Positions 2,102 through 7,542 of a DNA stretch of 7,542 bases are shown here, piece after piece (within the stretch, counting starts at the first letter, position 1; each line of letters opens with the position of its first letter). Source of the stretch: Candidatus Mcinerneyibacteriota bacterium. Lineage in GTDB: Bacteria > AUK180 > JAQVHJ01. The stretch is from positions 1 to 7,542 of the forward strand of contig DAOVMD010000134.1 of NCBI GenBank assembly GCA_030630935.1. The letters run 5' to 3'. The translations under genes and the position numbers were made by a program. The notes under the pieces were generated by a model. The model was not told the origin of the DNA. It ran no database searches and saw nothing but the letters and a program-made list of their open reading frames with translations.

Positions 2102-3460
2102 TTAACGGGCTCCTTTTTGAAATAAGATAATAAAAATTGTTTTAAAGAAAATTTCAATGTCTAACCAAATAGAATAATTATTTATATAAAATAAATCAAA
2201 ACTTAATCTCTCTTCTAAGCTTAAGTCATACCGACCATTTATCTGTGCAAGACCGGTAAGCCCAGGCTTAACCAGCAACCTGATTCCTTTATACGCAGGA
2301 CGCTGTTCAACAAAATAAGGCCGCTCAGGACGGGGGCCTATCATTGATAACCTACCAAATAAAACTAATAATAGCTGCGGGAGTTCGTCTAAACTAAAAC
2401 GCCTTAAAAATTTGCCGATTCGCGTAATTCTAGCATCATCTTTATCTGCCCACTTAGGACCGGTCTCTTCTTCTGCATCTTCAAACATTGAACGGAATTT
2501 TAAGATTTTGAACGGTGTTCCATTTAAACCAAGGCGAATCTGCTTAAATAAAGTCGAACCTTTTGAATCAATTTTTATAAGAATAGGAATTATTAAAAAT
2601 AATGGTAAACTAAACACTATTAAAATTAATGAGATGAATATATCAAACAACCTCTTTATTAATGCATTAATCCCATATATTGGATGGGTAATAATTTTAA
2701 AAAAAGGGAAACCCTCGACCGGTAATAACTTATAACCATTTGAAACAAGATTAATATACTCAGGATCAAGCCAAAAATTTAAATCAAGACCAGGGGTATT
2801 ATTAATTGCTGACATAATCTCCTTAAGGTCAACCGGCTTAAGAAAAAGAATTGTTTTAATCTTATACCTCTCTATTATATTTAATAGATGCTCGCCATCT
2901 CTTAAAACTGAATCAATACCAAAACAACTGTCAATCCCGGCTAACTTTAAAATATACCTATCCTTGAAGAACCCCTTCAGCTTCTTCGATTCCGCTTTAT
3001 CAAAAACTTGATGTGTAAAAATTAATAGTCCGGGAAGAGATTGTGTTGACTTCATCAACAAGTCCGCAAAACTCCCAGCAAAGGTCCTGAATATTAAAAT
3101 AAAAAAGACTAATAAAAAAAGATAAATAATAAAAACCCATCTTGATAATAATATATTCTCAGTTGAGTACATATTGCAAAAAAGAATAATTACAAAACTT
3201 ATTATTAAATGGAAAAGCCCCGAAATTAAAATTTTCCTGAATATATGAATATCAAGCAATCGATCTGATACATAAACCCCAAAAATTAACATGAAAAACC
3301 AGAAACTAAAACTGAATAACAAAACAACTGTATAAAATGCTGCCAGGTGATTCTCTGGAATTGCTCCTAAAAACCTGATGTAATAAGATAAATATAAAAC
3401 AAAACCCGTAATTACTATCTCAATTATCGAGAGAATTAAAAATTTAAAAACTTTTTTCAT
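2102..3460 (-). CDS. Polyprenyl-phosphate sugar-1-phosphate transferase (WbaP/WcaJ type)
   Basis: This 452-residue enzyme is a polytopic phosphoglycosyl transferase, the usual first step in making lipid-linked exopolysaccharide or O-antigen repeat units: it moves a sugar-1-phosphate from a nucleotide sugar to undecaprenyl phosphate. About four N-terminal membrane helices (residues 5-127) precede a soluble Rossmann-like region (about 140-255). The bacterial sugar-transferase domain begins at KRLFDI (269-274) with its membrane re-entrant helix. It contains KFRSM (321-325), the catalytic Asp-Glu dyad D358-E359 in SLDELPQL, GPRPER (375-380) and KPGLTGLAQINGRY. Length is normal for the family. The sugar (often glucose, galactose or GlcNAc) cannot be assigned. 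It is the first gene of the minus-strand operon, with an AGAGG ribosome site 3 nt before ATG and a strong-looking promoter upstream. The stop is a tandem TAATAA that leads into the next ATG. Confidence 0.96.
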   Translation of the reverse strand: MKKVFKFLILSIIEIVITGFVLYLSYYIRFLGAIPENHLAAFYTVVLLFSFSFWFFMLIFGVYVSDRLLDIHIFRKILISGLFHLIISFVIILFCNMYSTENILLSRWVFIIYLFLLVFFILIFRTFAGSFADLLMKSTQSLPGLLIFTHQVFDKAESKKLKGFFKDRYILKLAGIDSCFGIDSVLRDGEHLLNIIERYKIKTILFLKPVDLKEIMSAINNTPGLDLNFWLDPEYINLVSNGYKLLPVEGFPFFKIITHPIYGINALIKRLFDIFISLILIVFSLPLFLIIPILIKIDSKGSTLFKQIRLGLNGTPFKILKFRSMFEDAEEETGPKWADKDDARITRIGKFLRRFSLDELPQLLLVLFGRLSMIGPRPERPYFVEQRPAYKGIRLLVKPGLTGLAQINGRYDLSLEERLSFDLFYINNYSIWLDIEIFFKTIFIILFQKGAR

Positions 3461-3482
3461 AAGCCTCTTTGAAATTTATAAA

Positions 3483-3511
3483 ATTATATCATAATACACT
3501 TTTTTTTGCAA
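3483..3511 (-). promoter_or_regulatory. Promoter of the minus-strand polysaccharide operon
   Basis: On the minus strand a TTGCAA -35 (3506-3511, 4 of 6 consensus) is followed by a 17-bp spacer and a perfect TATAAT -10 (3483-3488). The -10 is preceded by TGA, giving an extended -10 (TGN). A start about 7 nt downstream would leave a leader of about 15 nt with AAGAGG just before the ATG. This fits sigma-70-type housekeeping transcription; no operator is obvious. Confidence 0.7.
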
Positions 3512-3521
3512 GGAAAATATC

Positions 3522-3538
3522 ATAGTTTCGCTTCGCTC
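3522..3538. repeat. GTTTCGCTTCGCTC element, copy 1
   Basis: The 17-mer ATAGTTTCGCTTCGCTC occurs here and again at 6352-6368, both times in non-coding DNA. The opposite strand reads GAGCGAAGCGAAACTAT, with the pentamer GCGAA twice in tandem and the 7-mer GCGAAGC inside. Upstream AAGGAAA (3510-3516) can pair imperfectly with TTTCGCTT (3526-3533, one bulge), a weaker version of the hairpin around copy 2. It lies just upstream of the minus-operon -35 box. Two exact copies in 7.5 kb suggest a dispersed genomic repeat. Confidence 0.65.
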
Positions 3539-3610
3539 AACATTTATGATTTATGATTGATAGTTAGTAATTTAAGATTGATTTTGCATTATGTAATACA
3601 ATGCTACGAT

Positions 3611-3649
3611 TTACTAACACTTGAACTATTGAACGCATGCGAAGCATGC
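3611..3649 (+). repeat. 39-bp direct repeat with hairpin, copy A
   Basis: Positions 3611-3649 match 3720-3758 at 37 of 39 bases, with the last 30 identical. The unit has two parts: two TTGAAC octamers in tandem (TTGAACTATTGAAC, 3621-3634) and the inverted repeat GCATGC-GAA-GCATGC (3635-3649). The inverted repeat can fold as a 6-bp stem with a GAA triloop. Its centre, GCGAAGC (3639-3645), is the 7-mer known from structural work to form an unusually stable DNA mini-hairpin. Function unknown; it looks like a short REP-like or MITE-like element. Confidence 0.8.
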
Positions 3650-3678
3650 CTTTAGAAACATTCCAACAATTGAACCAT

Positions 3679-3698
3679 AGACGTGCCATGGCACGTCT
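3679..3698. repeat. Perfect 20-bp palindrome
   Basis: AGACGTGCCATGGCACGTCT reads identically on both strands, with a GCCATGGC core. The right flank continues CTAC, while the left flank (CCAT) does not match, so the palindrome may be the remains of a longer element ending GTAG...CTAC. The inverted repeat at 7451-7482 has the same GTAGNG...CNCTAC edges, which hints at one repeat superfamily. A dimeric regulator site is the alternative, but the position between repeats favours a dispersed element. Confidence 0.75.
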
Positions 3699-3719
3699 CT
3701 ACAATAACACTTAAACATT

Positions 3720-3758
3720 TTATTAACTCTTGAACTATTGAACGCATGCGAAGCATGC
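3720..3758 (+). repeat. 39-bp direct repeat with hairpin, copy B
   Basis: This is the second copy of the 3611-3649 unit, offset by 109 bp, with only two differences. TTGAACTATTGAAC is at 3730-3743 and the GCATGC-GAA-GCATGC hairpin at 3744-3758, with GCGAAGC at 3748-3754. It is followed by ATTGAACACTTAAAC, so here octamer units flank the hairpin on both sides. It lies about 30 bp upstream of the plus-operon -35 box. Confidence 0.8.
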
Positions 3759-3787
3759 ATTGAACACTTAAACTTTTATTTTTTACC

Positions 3788-3816
3788 TTGAATAATAAAT
3801 TAAAATATGTTAAAAT
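3788..3816 (+). promoter_or_regulatory. Promoter of the plus-strand operon
   Basis: TTGAAT (3788-3793) and TAAAAT (3811-3816) are separated by 17 bp, and TGT precedes the -10, giving an extended -10. A start near 3823 would leave a leader of under 20 nt. The ribosome site AAGGA (3828-3832) is 8 nt before the ATG at 3841. Extended -10 boxes are present on both sides of this intergenic region, so both operons may use the same sigma factor. Confidence 0.6.
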
Positions 3817-3840
3817 TAATAAAACATAAGGAAAAACTTA

Positions 3841-4923
3841 ATGAAGATTTGCCTTGACCTTCTTCCAATCCCTGAAGAGTACGGTGGTTCGGGACGTTAC
3901 GCCCTAAACCTTATTAAAGGTTTCTCGGAGCTATATGGCTTATATCCAAATAAATACATTATTTATTTAAACAGCATTATAAAAAAGCATGTCTCGATAG
4001 ATAATAACAATTTTATAATTAACAGCAGGTCATTTAAATCAAAAATTGCAAGGATCAGGTTTGAACAAAACAAGTTGGTAAAGCTTGTAAATACTGAAGA
4101 GTTCGACGTATTTCATGCAATTGCTAATATCCTTCCTCTCAAGATCAATGCAGAGAAAACAAAACTAATTGCTACTGTTCACGACCTATTATTCCTTAAG
4201 AATCCTACACGATATCCGATTACAAAATATCAATATTACAAACACTATGTTTCAAAAACTATTTCTATTTCACATAAAATAATTGTAGATTCCGAGTATA
4301 CAAAAAACGATATTGAAACATACTTCCCGGAAGAAAAAGAAAAAGTTAGGGTAATCCCTTTAGCTCCTGACCCCACCTTTCGACCTGATGGTGATAATGT
4401 CCAAACGGAAGATTTTATCCTGACAGTTGCTGCGCTGGAGCCCGGAAAAGGATTTGAAGACCTCCTTACTGCATTAGAGCAAACCTTCAGAGAAAGAAAA
4501 ATAAAATTATTTATTGCAGGTCCGAAAGGTTGGAAAAATAAAAAAATTATGAAAAAAATATTAAACCTGAATAAAGCATATAATGGGATTAAGCTACTCG
4601 GCTTCATTCCGAATCAAGAATTAGCAAAAATTTATAGAAGCGCAAGGTTATTTATCTACCCGTCTTTGCAGGAAGGTTTTGGTTTGCCGGTGATTGAGGC
4701 TATGGCAAGCGGAATCCCGGTTTTAGTACCAGATACAGATCATTATCGCAAGATTACAGGCGGAAAAACATCATATTTCAATCCAAAAATCAAGGACGAC
4801 CTTTTTCTAAAAATCAATAAAATTATCTCGTCCGAACAAAACAATAGCAACGCTTTAACCTGGGTAAATCAATACACATGGAAAGACGTTGCAAAGAAAA
4901 CCCTGGAAGTATATAAAGAATGA
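3841..4923 (+). CDS. Glycosyltransferase family 4 (GT-B fold)
   Basis: This 360-residue retaining glycosyltransferase resembles mannosyl- or rhamnosyl-type transferases of polysaccharide clusters. It is predicted to be cytosolic or peripheral at the inner membrane. The N-terminal acceptor domain has the glycine loop EYGGSGRYALN (about residues 13-23) and the ATVHDLLFLKNP segment. SEYTKNDI and VRVIPLAPD mark the end of that domain. The C-terminal nucleotide-sugar domain has AALEPGKGFEDLL, LFIAGPKGW, KLLGFIPNQEL and YRSARLFIYPSLQEGFGLPVIEAMASG, with the donor-binding pair E278-x7-E286. No membrane helix or signal is seen. Length is normal. The start is fixed by AAGGA 8 nt upstream and by the usual family N-terminus. 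Its stop overlaps the next start (ATGA), so the two proteins are probably made together. The donor and acceptor are not readable from sequence. Confidence 0.94.
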   Translation: MKICLDLLPIPEEYGGSGRYALNLIKGFSELYGLYPNKYIIYLNSIIKKHVSIDNNNFIINSRSFKSKIARIRFEQNKLVKLVNTEEFDVFHAIANILPLKINAEKTKLIATVHDLLFLKNPTRYPITKYQYYKHYVSKTISISHKIIVDSEYTKNDIETYFPEEKEKVRVIPLAPDPTFRPDGDNVQTEDFILTVAALEPGKGFEDLLTALEQTFRERKIKLFIAGPKGWKNKKIMKKILNLNKAYNGIKLLGFIPNQELAKIYRSARLFIYPSLQEGFGLPVIEAMASGIPVLVPDTDHYRKITGGKTSYFNPKIKDDLFLKINKIISSEQNNSNALTWVNQYTWKDVAKKTLEVYKE

Positions 4924-6347
4924 AAAAACTTCTTTTATTAAACCCTCCCTTTCTCCCAAATTATTCAAGAGACTCCCGTTCTCCGGCTGTTACACGGAGC
5001 GGAACAATTTATTATCCTATCTGGTTAAGTTATGCAGCTGGATATTTAATAAGAAATAAAGTCAATGTAAAATTGATCGATGCTATTGCTGAACCCGTTC
5101 CCTGGAAACAATTCTCCAAATACCTTTCGGACGAAAACTACGATATAATCGCAATCCACACAAGCACACCATCGATTGAGTCCGACGGTAAGATTGCTCA
5201 GGATATAAAAAAGATTTTACCGACCGCACGCATCTATTTAACAGGAACACATGTTTCGGCATTACCTGAGGAGACCCTGAAACTTTTCCCGGAGGTTGAT
5301 GGAGTTGTGGTAGGGGAGTTGGAATATCCTTTACTTGACCTTGCGAAGGGAATGCCGCTCAATGAGGTTAGGGGAATAGTTTACCGGGAGGGGAACCGGA
5401 TATTTCATTCAAAGCCCAAGGAGATATTCAAGGAGTTATTTCAACTTGAATGGGTATCGAAGATTTACAGAAAGTTTTTGAATATAGATAATTATTTTTA
5501 TTCAGCCCTGCGGTATCCAGTAATTACTATTAATGCGGGTCGTGGTTGTCATTATAATTGTTCATTCTGTGTATTACCCCAGGTTTTCACCGGTCACAAT
5601 GTCAGGTTGCGTGAAGTTGATGATATTATTGCAGAGCTTGAATATATAAAAAGTGAGATGCCCTGGGTAAAAGAGATTATGTTTGAAGATGATACATTCA
5701 CGATTGATCAGCTCTGGCTTAAACGATTCTGTCTTGAACTGATTGTTCGTAAAATTAAAATTCGATGGTCAGCTAATGCACGAGCTGAATTAAGTCTGAA
5801 CACATTAAAACTAATGAAGTTAGCCGGGTTACGACTATTGTTCGTTGGTTTTGAATCACCGAACAAAAAAACATTACACAGTATTCATAAGGGGATTACA
5901 CCTGAGCAGCAGCAAGTATTCATGGCGAATACCCGGTTAGCCAAGGTTAAGGTTCACGGCTCATTTATTTTTGGATTACCCGGTGAAACCATGGGAGATA
6001 TGGGTGATACAATCTCATATGCTATAAAGCTCCAGCCTGATACATGCCAATTCTTTCCATTAATCCCATATCCCGGAACGGAGATGTTTCACCAGTTAAA
6101 TAAAAAAGGACATATTAAATTCGAGAAATATAGAGATTACCTTACCCCTGAAGGATATCATTCAACAGTACTTGCTTATCCTGACGTCTCAACAGATGAA
6201 ATCCTGGCAATGTGTCGTATCGCAAGGAGAATTTTCTACAGACGTCCGGGATATATTCTAAAAAAAATCTCTCAAATACTGTTCAATCCAGCGGAAGCAA
6301 AACGTATTATCCGGGCATACTGGAATTTCCGAAAACATATGAAGTGA
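4920..6347 (+). CDS. B12-binding-domain radical SAM enzyme
   Basis: This 475-residue protein has the two-part layout of cobalamin-dependent radical SAM enzymes (the HpnJ, BchE and methyltransferase-type class). The N-terminal cobalamin-binding-like domain (about 1-150) starts LLLLNPPF, has YYPIWLSYAAGYL and continues through IIAIHTSTPS, LTGTHVSALPEE and VVVGELE. It lacks a canonical DxHxxG, as many in this class do. The radical SAM core has RGCHYNCSFC with cluster ligands C210, C214, C217; then MFEDDTFTID, GFESPNKKTL and FIFGLPGET follow. The C-terminus is a basic helical tail with FYRRPGYILKKI. Likely chemistry is methylation or another radical reaction at an unactivated carbon. The overlap with the glycosyltransferase suggests a glycan, carrier lipid or envelope lipid substrate, but this is inference. 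It is most like enzymes acting on hydrophobic substrates. The stop codon lies inside a hairpin (6341-6364). Confidence 0.93.
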   Translation: MKKLLLLNPPFLPNYSRDSRSPAVTRSGTIYYPIWLSYAAGYLIRNKVNVKLIDAIAEPVPWKQFSKYLSDENYDIIAIHTSTPSIESDGKIAQDIKKILPTARIYLTGTHVSALPEETLKLFPEVDGVVVGELEYPLLDLAKGMPLNEVRGIVYREGNRIFHSKPKEIFKELFQLEWVSKIYRKFLNIDNYFYSALRYPVITINAGRGCHYNCSFCVLPQVFTGHNVRLREVDDIIAELEYIKSEMPWVKEIMFEDDTFTIDQLWLKRFCLELIVRKIKIRWSANARAELSLNTLKLMKLAGLRLLFVGFESPNKKTLHSIHKGITPEQQQVFMANTRLAKVKVHGSFIFGLPGETMGDMGDTISYAIKLQPDTCQFFPLIPYPGTEMFHQLNKKGHIKFEKYRDYLTPEGYHSTVLAYPDVSTDEILAMCRIARRIFYRRPGYILKKISQILFNPAEAKRIIRAYWNFRKHMK

Positions 6348-6364
6348 AACAATAGTTTCGCTTC
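6341..6364 (+). terminator. Hairpin spanning the stop codon of the radical SAM gene
   Basis: GAAGTGAAAC (6341-6350) and GTTTCGCTTC (6355-6364) form a 10-bp stem with one U-G wobble and an AATA loop. The TGA stop (6345-6347) lies in the left arm. The right arm is part of the GTTTCGCTTCGCTC repeat. No U-tract follows, so classical intrinsic termination is doubtful; it may instead protect the mRNA 3' end, or may simply be the other half of the repeat element, which would then overlap the gene end. Confidence 0.4.
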
Positions 6365-6368
6365 GCTC
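6352..6368. repeat. GTTTCGCTTCGCTC element, copy 2
   Basis: This is an exact copy of the 17-mer at 3522-3538, 5 bp after the end of the radical SAM gene. It includes GCTTCGC (6360-6366), the complement of the mini-hairpin 7-mer GCGAAGC. Here the repeat pairs with the end of the gene to make the hairpin 6341-6364, so the full element may be a larger inverted repeat of which copy 1 retains mainly one arm. Confidence 0.65.
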
Positions 6369-6554
6369 CACAATGAAAAAGTAATAATGAAGAATATTTT
6401 TGCGTTATATATTTAAATGCTTTAGTTCAAAACAATATTTCTTAAGACACAGAGAAATGTAGGCAAACAAAAAAATAATTTAACAGGGAACTGAAGAGAA
6501 CTTATGAGAACTAAAAAAACAAAAAAGAAAAATGTCCACAGGGATGTACGGGGT

Positions 6555-6596: not shown

Positions 6597-7331
6597 TCAT
6601 TTAATTTGATAAGAGATTATATTAGAAATTACACGATTCTTCCCGTTGATCGTCTGTTCAATGTAAACAGTATAAACTCCTTGCTCGGTCTTAGAATAGA
6701 TTAATTCTTTCTTATCTACAACCGGAATAACCGATACCCGGACACCGTTATAAATTACTACCCATCTTTTTTTCAATCCGGAATCATCTATTCTTTTTTC
6801 AATTTTAATTATATTATCATTATTAATACTAAGTTCAACCCATGGAAATTTTACTTGTTTCAATTTCGCTTTAAGCTTTTTAACATATTTCATTATTTTT
6901 TTTACTTTAGCTTTTTGATGTTCCACAAGTTCGTTTAATTTGGCATTCTCCTTCTTGTACTTCTCAATATCCATTTTCAATTGTTTATATACGTCTCCTC
7001 CACCGGGACCTAACTCTGCCTTTAACATTAATATCTCTATCTCCATTGCCCGAATCTTAATTAGGTATTCTACCTGCATTTTCTTAGATTTCGCTAATTC
7101 CATCATTAGTTTACGGTTTACTTCTTCAACTTCCTTTATCTTTTCTATAAGTTCCTTATCAATATCGGGAGATGGGGTAGGTATAATTGCAGGTGGTCCC
7201 TTATCCGGAACCGGGTTAGAACTGCCGGAAACCGTGTTCCCAATTATGAAAACACATCCGGAAAAATAAAAACTGAAAAGAAAAATTAATAGTCTTGTTA
7301 ATATTAAAACTCTTCCTCTTTTATATTTCAT
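6597..7331 (-). CDS. Coiled-coil lipoprotein of unknown function
   Basis: I do not recognise this protein. With the second ATG (7331) it is 244 residues; that start is chosen because AGGAGG is 6 nt before it but only 3 nt before the first ATG (7334). A basic N-terminus and hydrophobic stretch (8-23) end in the lipobox FSGC with C26, so it should be lipid-modified; Val at +2 would send it to the outer membrane in a diderm. A proline/glycine/serine linker (31-55) follows, then a long charged helix or coiled coil in two parts (57-107 and 113-161) separated by GPGGG (108-112). The stretch 140-161 has 11 lysines in 22 residues. The C-terminal 80 residues look beta-rich (RWVVIYNGVRVSVIPVV, GVYTVYIEQTINGK), like a small Ig-like domain. 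It converges on the polysaccharide operon and need not be related to it. Confidence 0.8.
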   Translation of the reverse strand: MKYKRGRVLILTRLLIFLFSFYFSGCVFIIGNTVSGSSNPVPDKGPPAIIPTPSPDIDKELIEKIKEVEEVNRKLMMELAKSKKMQVEYLIKIRAMEIEILMLKAELGPGGGDVYKQLKMDIEKYKKENAKLNELVEHQKAKVKKIMKYVKKLKAKLKQVKFPWVELSINNDNIIKIEKRIDDSGLKKRWVVIYNGVRVSVIPVVDKKELIYSKTEQGVYTVYIEQTINGKNRVISNIISYQIK

Positions 7332-7542
7332 CATATACCTCCTTTTTGATTTACAATATTATTTACGGGGGTTACAACTTCTTTATTCTGTGAAATTTCT
7401 TTTTTAAAAAGTTTAGAGTCTTCAAAATCGTTTACGATCTTTTGAAAAAACAGTAGGGGCGACCGACCGGTCGCCCCTACTGAACGATACAAATATTCTA
7501 TTAATATATTTTGACATAGCTTGTTTATATAATTATTCACAG
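7331..7542 (-). CDS. Doubtful short reading frame, open at the window edge
   Basis: A frame of 69 residues can be read from a GTG at 7540, two bases from the window end, to a TGA at 7331. No stop precedes the GTG within the window, so this could equally be the 3' end of a longer gene. In favour: it ends QKGGI-TGA with the lipoprotein's ribosome site in its last codons and an ATGA overlap, typical of coupled genes, and its last 35 residues have a protein-like mix. Against: no recognisable domain, and a 32-bp inverted repeat in the middle (encoding VGATGRSPLL), which is more usual in non-coding DNA. Confidence 0.3.
   Translation of the reverse strand, partial: VNNYINKLCQNILIEYLYRSVGATGRSPLLFFQKIVNDFEDSKLFKKEISQNKEVVTPVNNIVNQKGGI
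7338..7344 (-). promoter_or_regulatory. Strong ribosome binding site that decides the lipoprotein start
   Basis: The minus strand reads AAGGAGG followed by TATATGATG. The site is the best Shine-Dalgarno in the window. Spacing of 3 nt to the first ATG is poor and 6 nt to the second is good, which favours initiation at 7331. It lies in the last codons of the upstream open frame, whose TGA overlaps the first ATG. Confidence 0.75.
7451..7482. repeat. GC-rich 32-bp inverted repeat
   Basis: CAGTAGGGGCGACC (7451-7464) and its exact complement (7469-7482) flank a 4-base GACC spacer, making a 14-bp perfect stem. It is far more GC-rich than its surroundings, a sign of a dispersed or foreign element. 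The edges GTAGGG...CCCTAC parallel the CTCTAC edge of the palindrome region near 3698. Similar GTAGGGGCGACC repeats are, from memory, common in intergenic DNA of many environmental bacteria and cyanobacteria and get translated as VGATGRSP-like peptides. No U-tract follows on either strand, so a terminator role is unlikely, though six T follow it on the minus strand. Confidence 0.8.

Follow-up and report, generated by a model that had tools for sequence, protein, structure and literature searches.

Organization of the locus

The question raised by this locus is what a B12-binding/radical SAM protein does when its gene overlaps that of a glycosyltransferase. In the 7,542-nucleotide stretch of DNA that was analysed (the window), the forward strand encodes a GT4 glycosyltransferase of 360 residues (3841-4923), which matches PF00534 (Glycos_transf_1, 89 bits) and PF13439 (Glyco_transf_4, 41.7 bits), both over cut-off, and a B12-binding/radical SAM protein of 475 residues (4920-6347; hereafter rSAM), identified by Pfam, NCBIfam, phylogeny and fold, in which the Pfam domains Radical_SAM (67 bits) and B12-binding (62 bits) score above their gathering cut-offs. 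The original prediction that an ATGA start/stop overlap joins the two genes is borne out (4920-4923, forward strand), the Pfam domains agree with it, and the overlap suggests that translation of the two genes is probably coupled. The start at 4841 given in that prediction falls within the GT4 gene, which begins at 3841, and is likely a slip of one digit.

The proposal that this is a divergent polysaccharide locus also stands, in that a polyprenyl-phosphate sugar-1-phosphate transferase of the WcaJ/EPS type (PGT; 2102-3460; Bac_transf 217 bits, TIGR03025 339 bits against a cut-off of 295.6) and a membrane GT2 glycosyltransferase (941-2098; Pfam Glycos_transf_2) are encoded on the reverse strand upstream of the GT4-rSAM pair. 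Beyond them on the reverse strand is a gene for an MnmL/YtqA-type tRNA-modification radical SAM protein (29-928; TIGR01212, 277 bits), which is probably unrelated to the GT4-rSAM locus. No gene for a flippase, a polymerase or sugar-nucleotide synthesis was found within the 7,542-nt window. The divergent intergenic region (3461-3840) contains a 43-nt direct repeat and a perfect inverted repeat; intergenic repeats of the window lie at 3524-3540, 3610-3652, 3719-3761 and 6350-6395 (TTTCGCTTCGCTC; GAACGCATGCGAAGCATGC, the 43-nt direct repeat; AGACGTGCCATGGCACGTCT, a perfect palindrome), and the sequence at 6347-6395 recurs at about 40 places in the same genome. Further downstream, the reverse strand encodes a coiled-coil protein of 245 residues that is a probable lipoprotein and matches no family with confidence (6597-7334).

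Conservation in the closest relative

The window belongs to a metagenome-assembled genome (MAG) of 3.16 Mb that is 80% complete (G000), and a search of genome contigs identified a single family-level relative, a MAG that is 72% complete (G001, locus L039). The rSAM proteins of the two genomes are 69% identical and the GT4 proteins 46% identical, and the 4-nt overlap is kept (1040-1043 of L039). Thus, the GT4-rSAM pair and its overlap are conserved in the sister genus. In G001, contig C158 ends within the GT4 gene, and a separate contig, C389, carries the MnmL, GT2 (L169, 12304-13482) and PGT genes adjoining in the same order as in the window and ends at its final base inside the PGT gene, the product of which is 59% identical to the PGT of the window. 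Because both contigs break at the divergent GT4/PGT junction, where the window has its repeats, the whole locus is probably syntenic, with the join between C158 and C389 inferred across the contig ends. The genes downstream of rSAM differ between the two genomes. No close HpnJ-like protein was found in five genomes of the same class that belong to another family.

rSAM belongs to a clade that is sister to HpnJ

The NCBIfam family that best matches rSAM is HpnJ (TIGR03471; 377-378 bits), the equivalog cut-off of which (577.6) is not reached, and the second-best is BchE (TIGR02026; 149 bits against a cut-off of 481). BchE is likewise a B12-binding radical SAM protein but acts on a porphyrin, and the window contains no photosynthesis genes. 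Among 337 genomes sampled across bacteria, HpnJ-like proteins (E-value of 1e-60 or better) are present in 86, and only five proteins, scoring 746-780 bits, exceed the HpnJ cut-off. In a careful maximum likelihood tree of 49 proteins, including rSAM and these five true HpnJ proteins, the latter form a clade of their own (support 100/99), and rSAM lies apart from them in a clade (support 100/99) that comprises 28 proteins and spans at least 18 bacterial families; a third small group is nearer to the 28 proteins. The comparison with HpnJ and BchE proposed in the original prediction thus places rSAM inside neither, and the clade, sister to HpnJ, is a new clade of a known kind of enzyme. Within the family, neither of the two outcomes named as speaking against the prediction, that the pair is rare in relatives or that rSAM falls in a clade of known unrelated function, was found.

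HpnJ and rSAM share the order of their domains, a Cx3Cx2C..PQ motif and a DDT region. They differ at the N-terminus, where the clade of 28 proteins has the signature SRxxRSPAVTKSGTxYYP and HpnJ has DGGAGxRYQ. The cysteines of the Cx3Cx2C motif (residues 210, 214 and 217 of rSAM) are invariant in 35 sequences. The domains, this motif and the predicted fold place rSAM in the class of cobalamin-dependent radical SAM enzymes, and on sequence and fold rSAM is a candidate user of cobalamin. The AlphaFold model (pLDDT 95, pTM 0.93) is closest to the solved structure of AprD4 with paromamine (PDB 6fd2; Z 36.0, 3.1 Å over 423 residues), followed by MgmA (Z 29.0) and OxsB (Z 28.2), and AprD4 is also the top hit of a profile search (155 bits). 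Given that AprD4 is a dehydratase and that other fold neighbours are methylases, the fold leaves the chemistry unfixed.

A second clade member in the same genome (contig C185), 41% identical to rSAM, lies in a cluster of the order GT4-GT4-asnB-epimerase-rSAM-GT2/GT4 fusion (L040). The fusion, directly downstream of the rSAM paralogue, combines GT2 and GT4 domains in a single ORF, which the end of the contig cuts short (6477-8215). On contig C4 of this genome, three tandem B12-binding/radical SAM genes are joined by successive 4-nt overlaps, and more coupled genes, of unassigned type, come after them (L046, 502-4486). A role in defence was considered and rejected: in PADLOC, rSAM matched only the uncharacterised candidate PDC-M51A, and weakly (47 bits), and GT4 had no match.

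Glycosyltransferases are the recurrent partners of the clade

A GT2, GT4 or PGT gene on the same strand directly adjoins the rSAM gene in 17 of the 28 clade members, compared with two of 322 control genes taken from control stretches in genomes of the same set (Fisher p about 1e-19, in a test that ignores relatedness). Counted by family, adjacency is found in about 12 of 18, one of which was added through its GT9. The ORF caller used for the neighbours gave wrong frames in some GC-rich loci (e.g. L102 and L104), so these counts are approximate and probably low. The remaining 11 members lack a called GT2, GT4 or PGT gene next to rSAM; in one of them there is a GT9 with a PGT close by, and in another an adjoining aminotransferase. 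Together with the overlap kept in the sister genus, the adjacency throughout the clade suggests that the pairing is more than chance.

GT4 directly adjoins rSAM in only four of the 28 loci, which rules it out as the universal partner. The most common partner is an orthologous GT2 (mostly 37-60% identity between loci), which is fused to a PGT domain in four loci (L087, L089, L105 and L112); in L087 and L089, rSAM and the GT2-PGT fusion appear to make up a two-gene unit. The predicted GT4/rSAM pairing holds within the family. Throughout the clade, GT2 predominates as the partner, in many cases fused to a PGT or beside one, so the pairing with GT4 is one form of a broader association. Over 11 loci the partner GT2 and rSAM have correlated distances (r 0.71, Mantel p 2e-4); this demonstrates co-inheritance, to which shared vertical descent may contribute in part. 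GT9 is also a recurrent neighbour, and in L105 and L112 it occurs with a lipid-A-type (LpxL-like) acyltransferase. A DUF362 protein with 4Fe-4S motifs, which could be the electron donor of rSAM, directly adjoins the clade rSAM in several families, among them in L088 (8438-9676) and L095 (8407-9795), and similar proteins are present in L090 and L096. In total, the clade is repeatedly linked with enzymes for glycans on lipid carriers.

The hosts of the clade appear unable to make hopanoids

HpnJ catalyses the contraction of a sugar ring, as judged from the structure of the cyclitol ether. In the hopanoid pathway the glycosyltransferase HpnI adds GlcNAc to the hopanoid, HpnK deacetylates it, and HpnJ converts the product to bacteriohopanetetrol cyclitol ether (PMC12583986). 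The original prediction knew of no established pathway with exactly the pair of a GT4 and a B12 radical SAM enzyme; HpnI, HpnK and HpnJ provide a precedent for a glycosyltransferase and an HpnJ-type radical SAM enzyme, in which HpnJ works after the glycosyltransferase on one lipid-linked sugar (PMC12583986). A literature search for cobalamin radical SAM enzymes with glycosyltransferases or polysaccharides found nothing relevant beyond the hopanoid papers.

That rSAM is itself a hopanoid HpnJ with bacteriohopanetetrol glucosamine as its substrate has in its favour that HpnJ is the best NCBIfam match, but the score of 377 bits falls well short of 577.6, the true HpnJ proteins have their own clade, and SHC, HpnH and HpnK are all missing from G000 and G001 (80% and 72% complete), so that we regard this function as extremely improbable and reject it. 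Four of the five genomes with HpnJ have SHC, as against none of the 27 other genomes tested, including G000 and G001. HpnH shows the same split over the 23 genomes tested, and both markers are absent from every clade genome tested. MAG incompleteness weakens single absences; the SHC/HpnH pattern is uniform over many genomes that are more than 90% complete. Accordingly, the hosts of the clade seem to lack the capacity for hopanoid synthesis. G000 and G001 yielded no HpnK deacetylase, which makes a glucosamine substrate made by HpnK unlikely. The partners differ as well, being GT4, GT2 and PGT in the clade. In a comparison that covered the window, its GT2 scores only 22 bits against the HpnI model (cut-off 310). 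The fifth genome with HpnJ, 99% complete (G067, L084), encodes an HpnJ of 775 bits, and neither SHC nor HpnH was found in it.

A model for the function of rSAM

Combining the locus, the tree and the partners, we suggest that this locus rather probably builds and tailors a lipid-linked glycan, with the co-translated rSAM remodelling one lipid-linked sugar. In this model, PGT would load a sugar-1-phosphate onto the polyprenyl phosphate carrier, GT2 and GT4 would lengthen the carrier-linked glycan, and rSAM, co-translated with GT4, would use radical chemistry to remodel one sugar that is still attached to the lipid. That the substrate of rSAM is a lipid-linked sugar seems likely to us, and AprD4, the closest solved structure, has an aminoglycoside substrate. 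The 11 clade members with no GT2, GT4 or PGT gene called beside rSAM and the lack of flippase, polymerase and sugar-nucleotide genes in the window weigh against the model. As for the reaction, the kinship of rSAM to HpnJ leads us to favour, tentatively and by analogy, a rearrangement that adds no methyl group, for instance one that contracts the sugar ring to a cyclitol. Only a few cobalamin radical SAM enzymes are non-methylating; HpnJ is counted among them, and until recently OxsB alone in this group had been isolated and characterised mechanistically (PMC13142503). The class is known to contract sugar rings, as established for OxsB and AlsB (PMC13331322), which share the B12-binding and radical SAM fold with rSAM (OxsB, Z 28) but are larger, act on nucleotides and are distant in sequence.

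The C-methylation of a sugar suggested in the original prediction is possible, although we consider it doubtful. Methylation is the most common reaction of cobalamin radical SAM enzymes (PMC13142503), sugars of aminoglycosides are methylated by GenK and GenD1 (PMC5461906), and the methylases MgmA, TsrM and CysS are among the fold neighbours (Z 27-29), all of which is consistent with a C-methyltransferase that gives rise to a branched-chain or C-methylated sugar in the glycan. However, HpnJ, the nearest named family and nearest characterised relative, is listed as non-methylating (PMC13142503). AprD4, clearly ahead of all other fold matches (Z 36.0), does not methylate either. AprD4 itself, a paromamine 1,2-diol dehydratase that ranks first by both profile and fold, dehydrates a pseudodisaccharide (PMC5461906), an aminoglycoside sugar, and could be the model for an rSAM that deoxygenates a glycan sugar as a radical dehydratase. 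Such a function is unlikely in our view: identity to AprD4 is only about 20%, the NCBIfam AprD4 model gives only 54 bits (cut-off 500), and no gene for an AprD3-like reductase was recognised next to rSAM. AprD4 also differs in belonging to a soluble antibiotic pathway. Alternatively, rSAM may act on the carrier lipid or on an acyl chain instead of the sugar, as the LpxL-like acyltransferases beside the clade members in L105 and L112 might indicate; other B12 radical SAM enzymes are proposed to act on membrane lipids (PMC13142503). With acyltransferases identified in one family only and glycosyltransferases overwhelmingly the partners of rSAM, we consider this possibility quite improbable.

Extending the favoured rearrangement of a lipid-linked sugar from this locus to the clade as a whole is more speculative. 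We regard it as a long shot worth stating that this sister clade of HpnJ, in at least 18 families that look free of hopanoids, produces sugars with a contracted ring (cyclitol-type) or with another rearranged skeleton, carried on polyprenyl-linked glycans or glycolipids. If so, the products of the clade would be a class of surface sugar not yet known from outside hopanoids. The two-gene units of rSAM and a GT2-PGT fusion provide a small, testable system, and a clade of this kind, tied to ordinary genes for lipid-linked glycans, would widen radical sugar remodelling across bacterial surface glycans.
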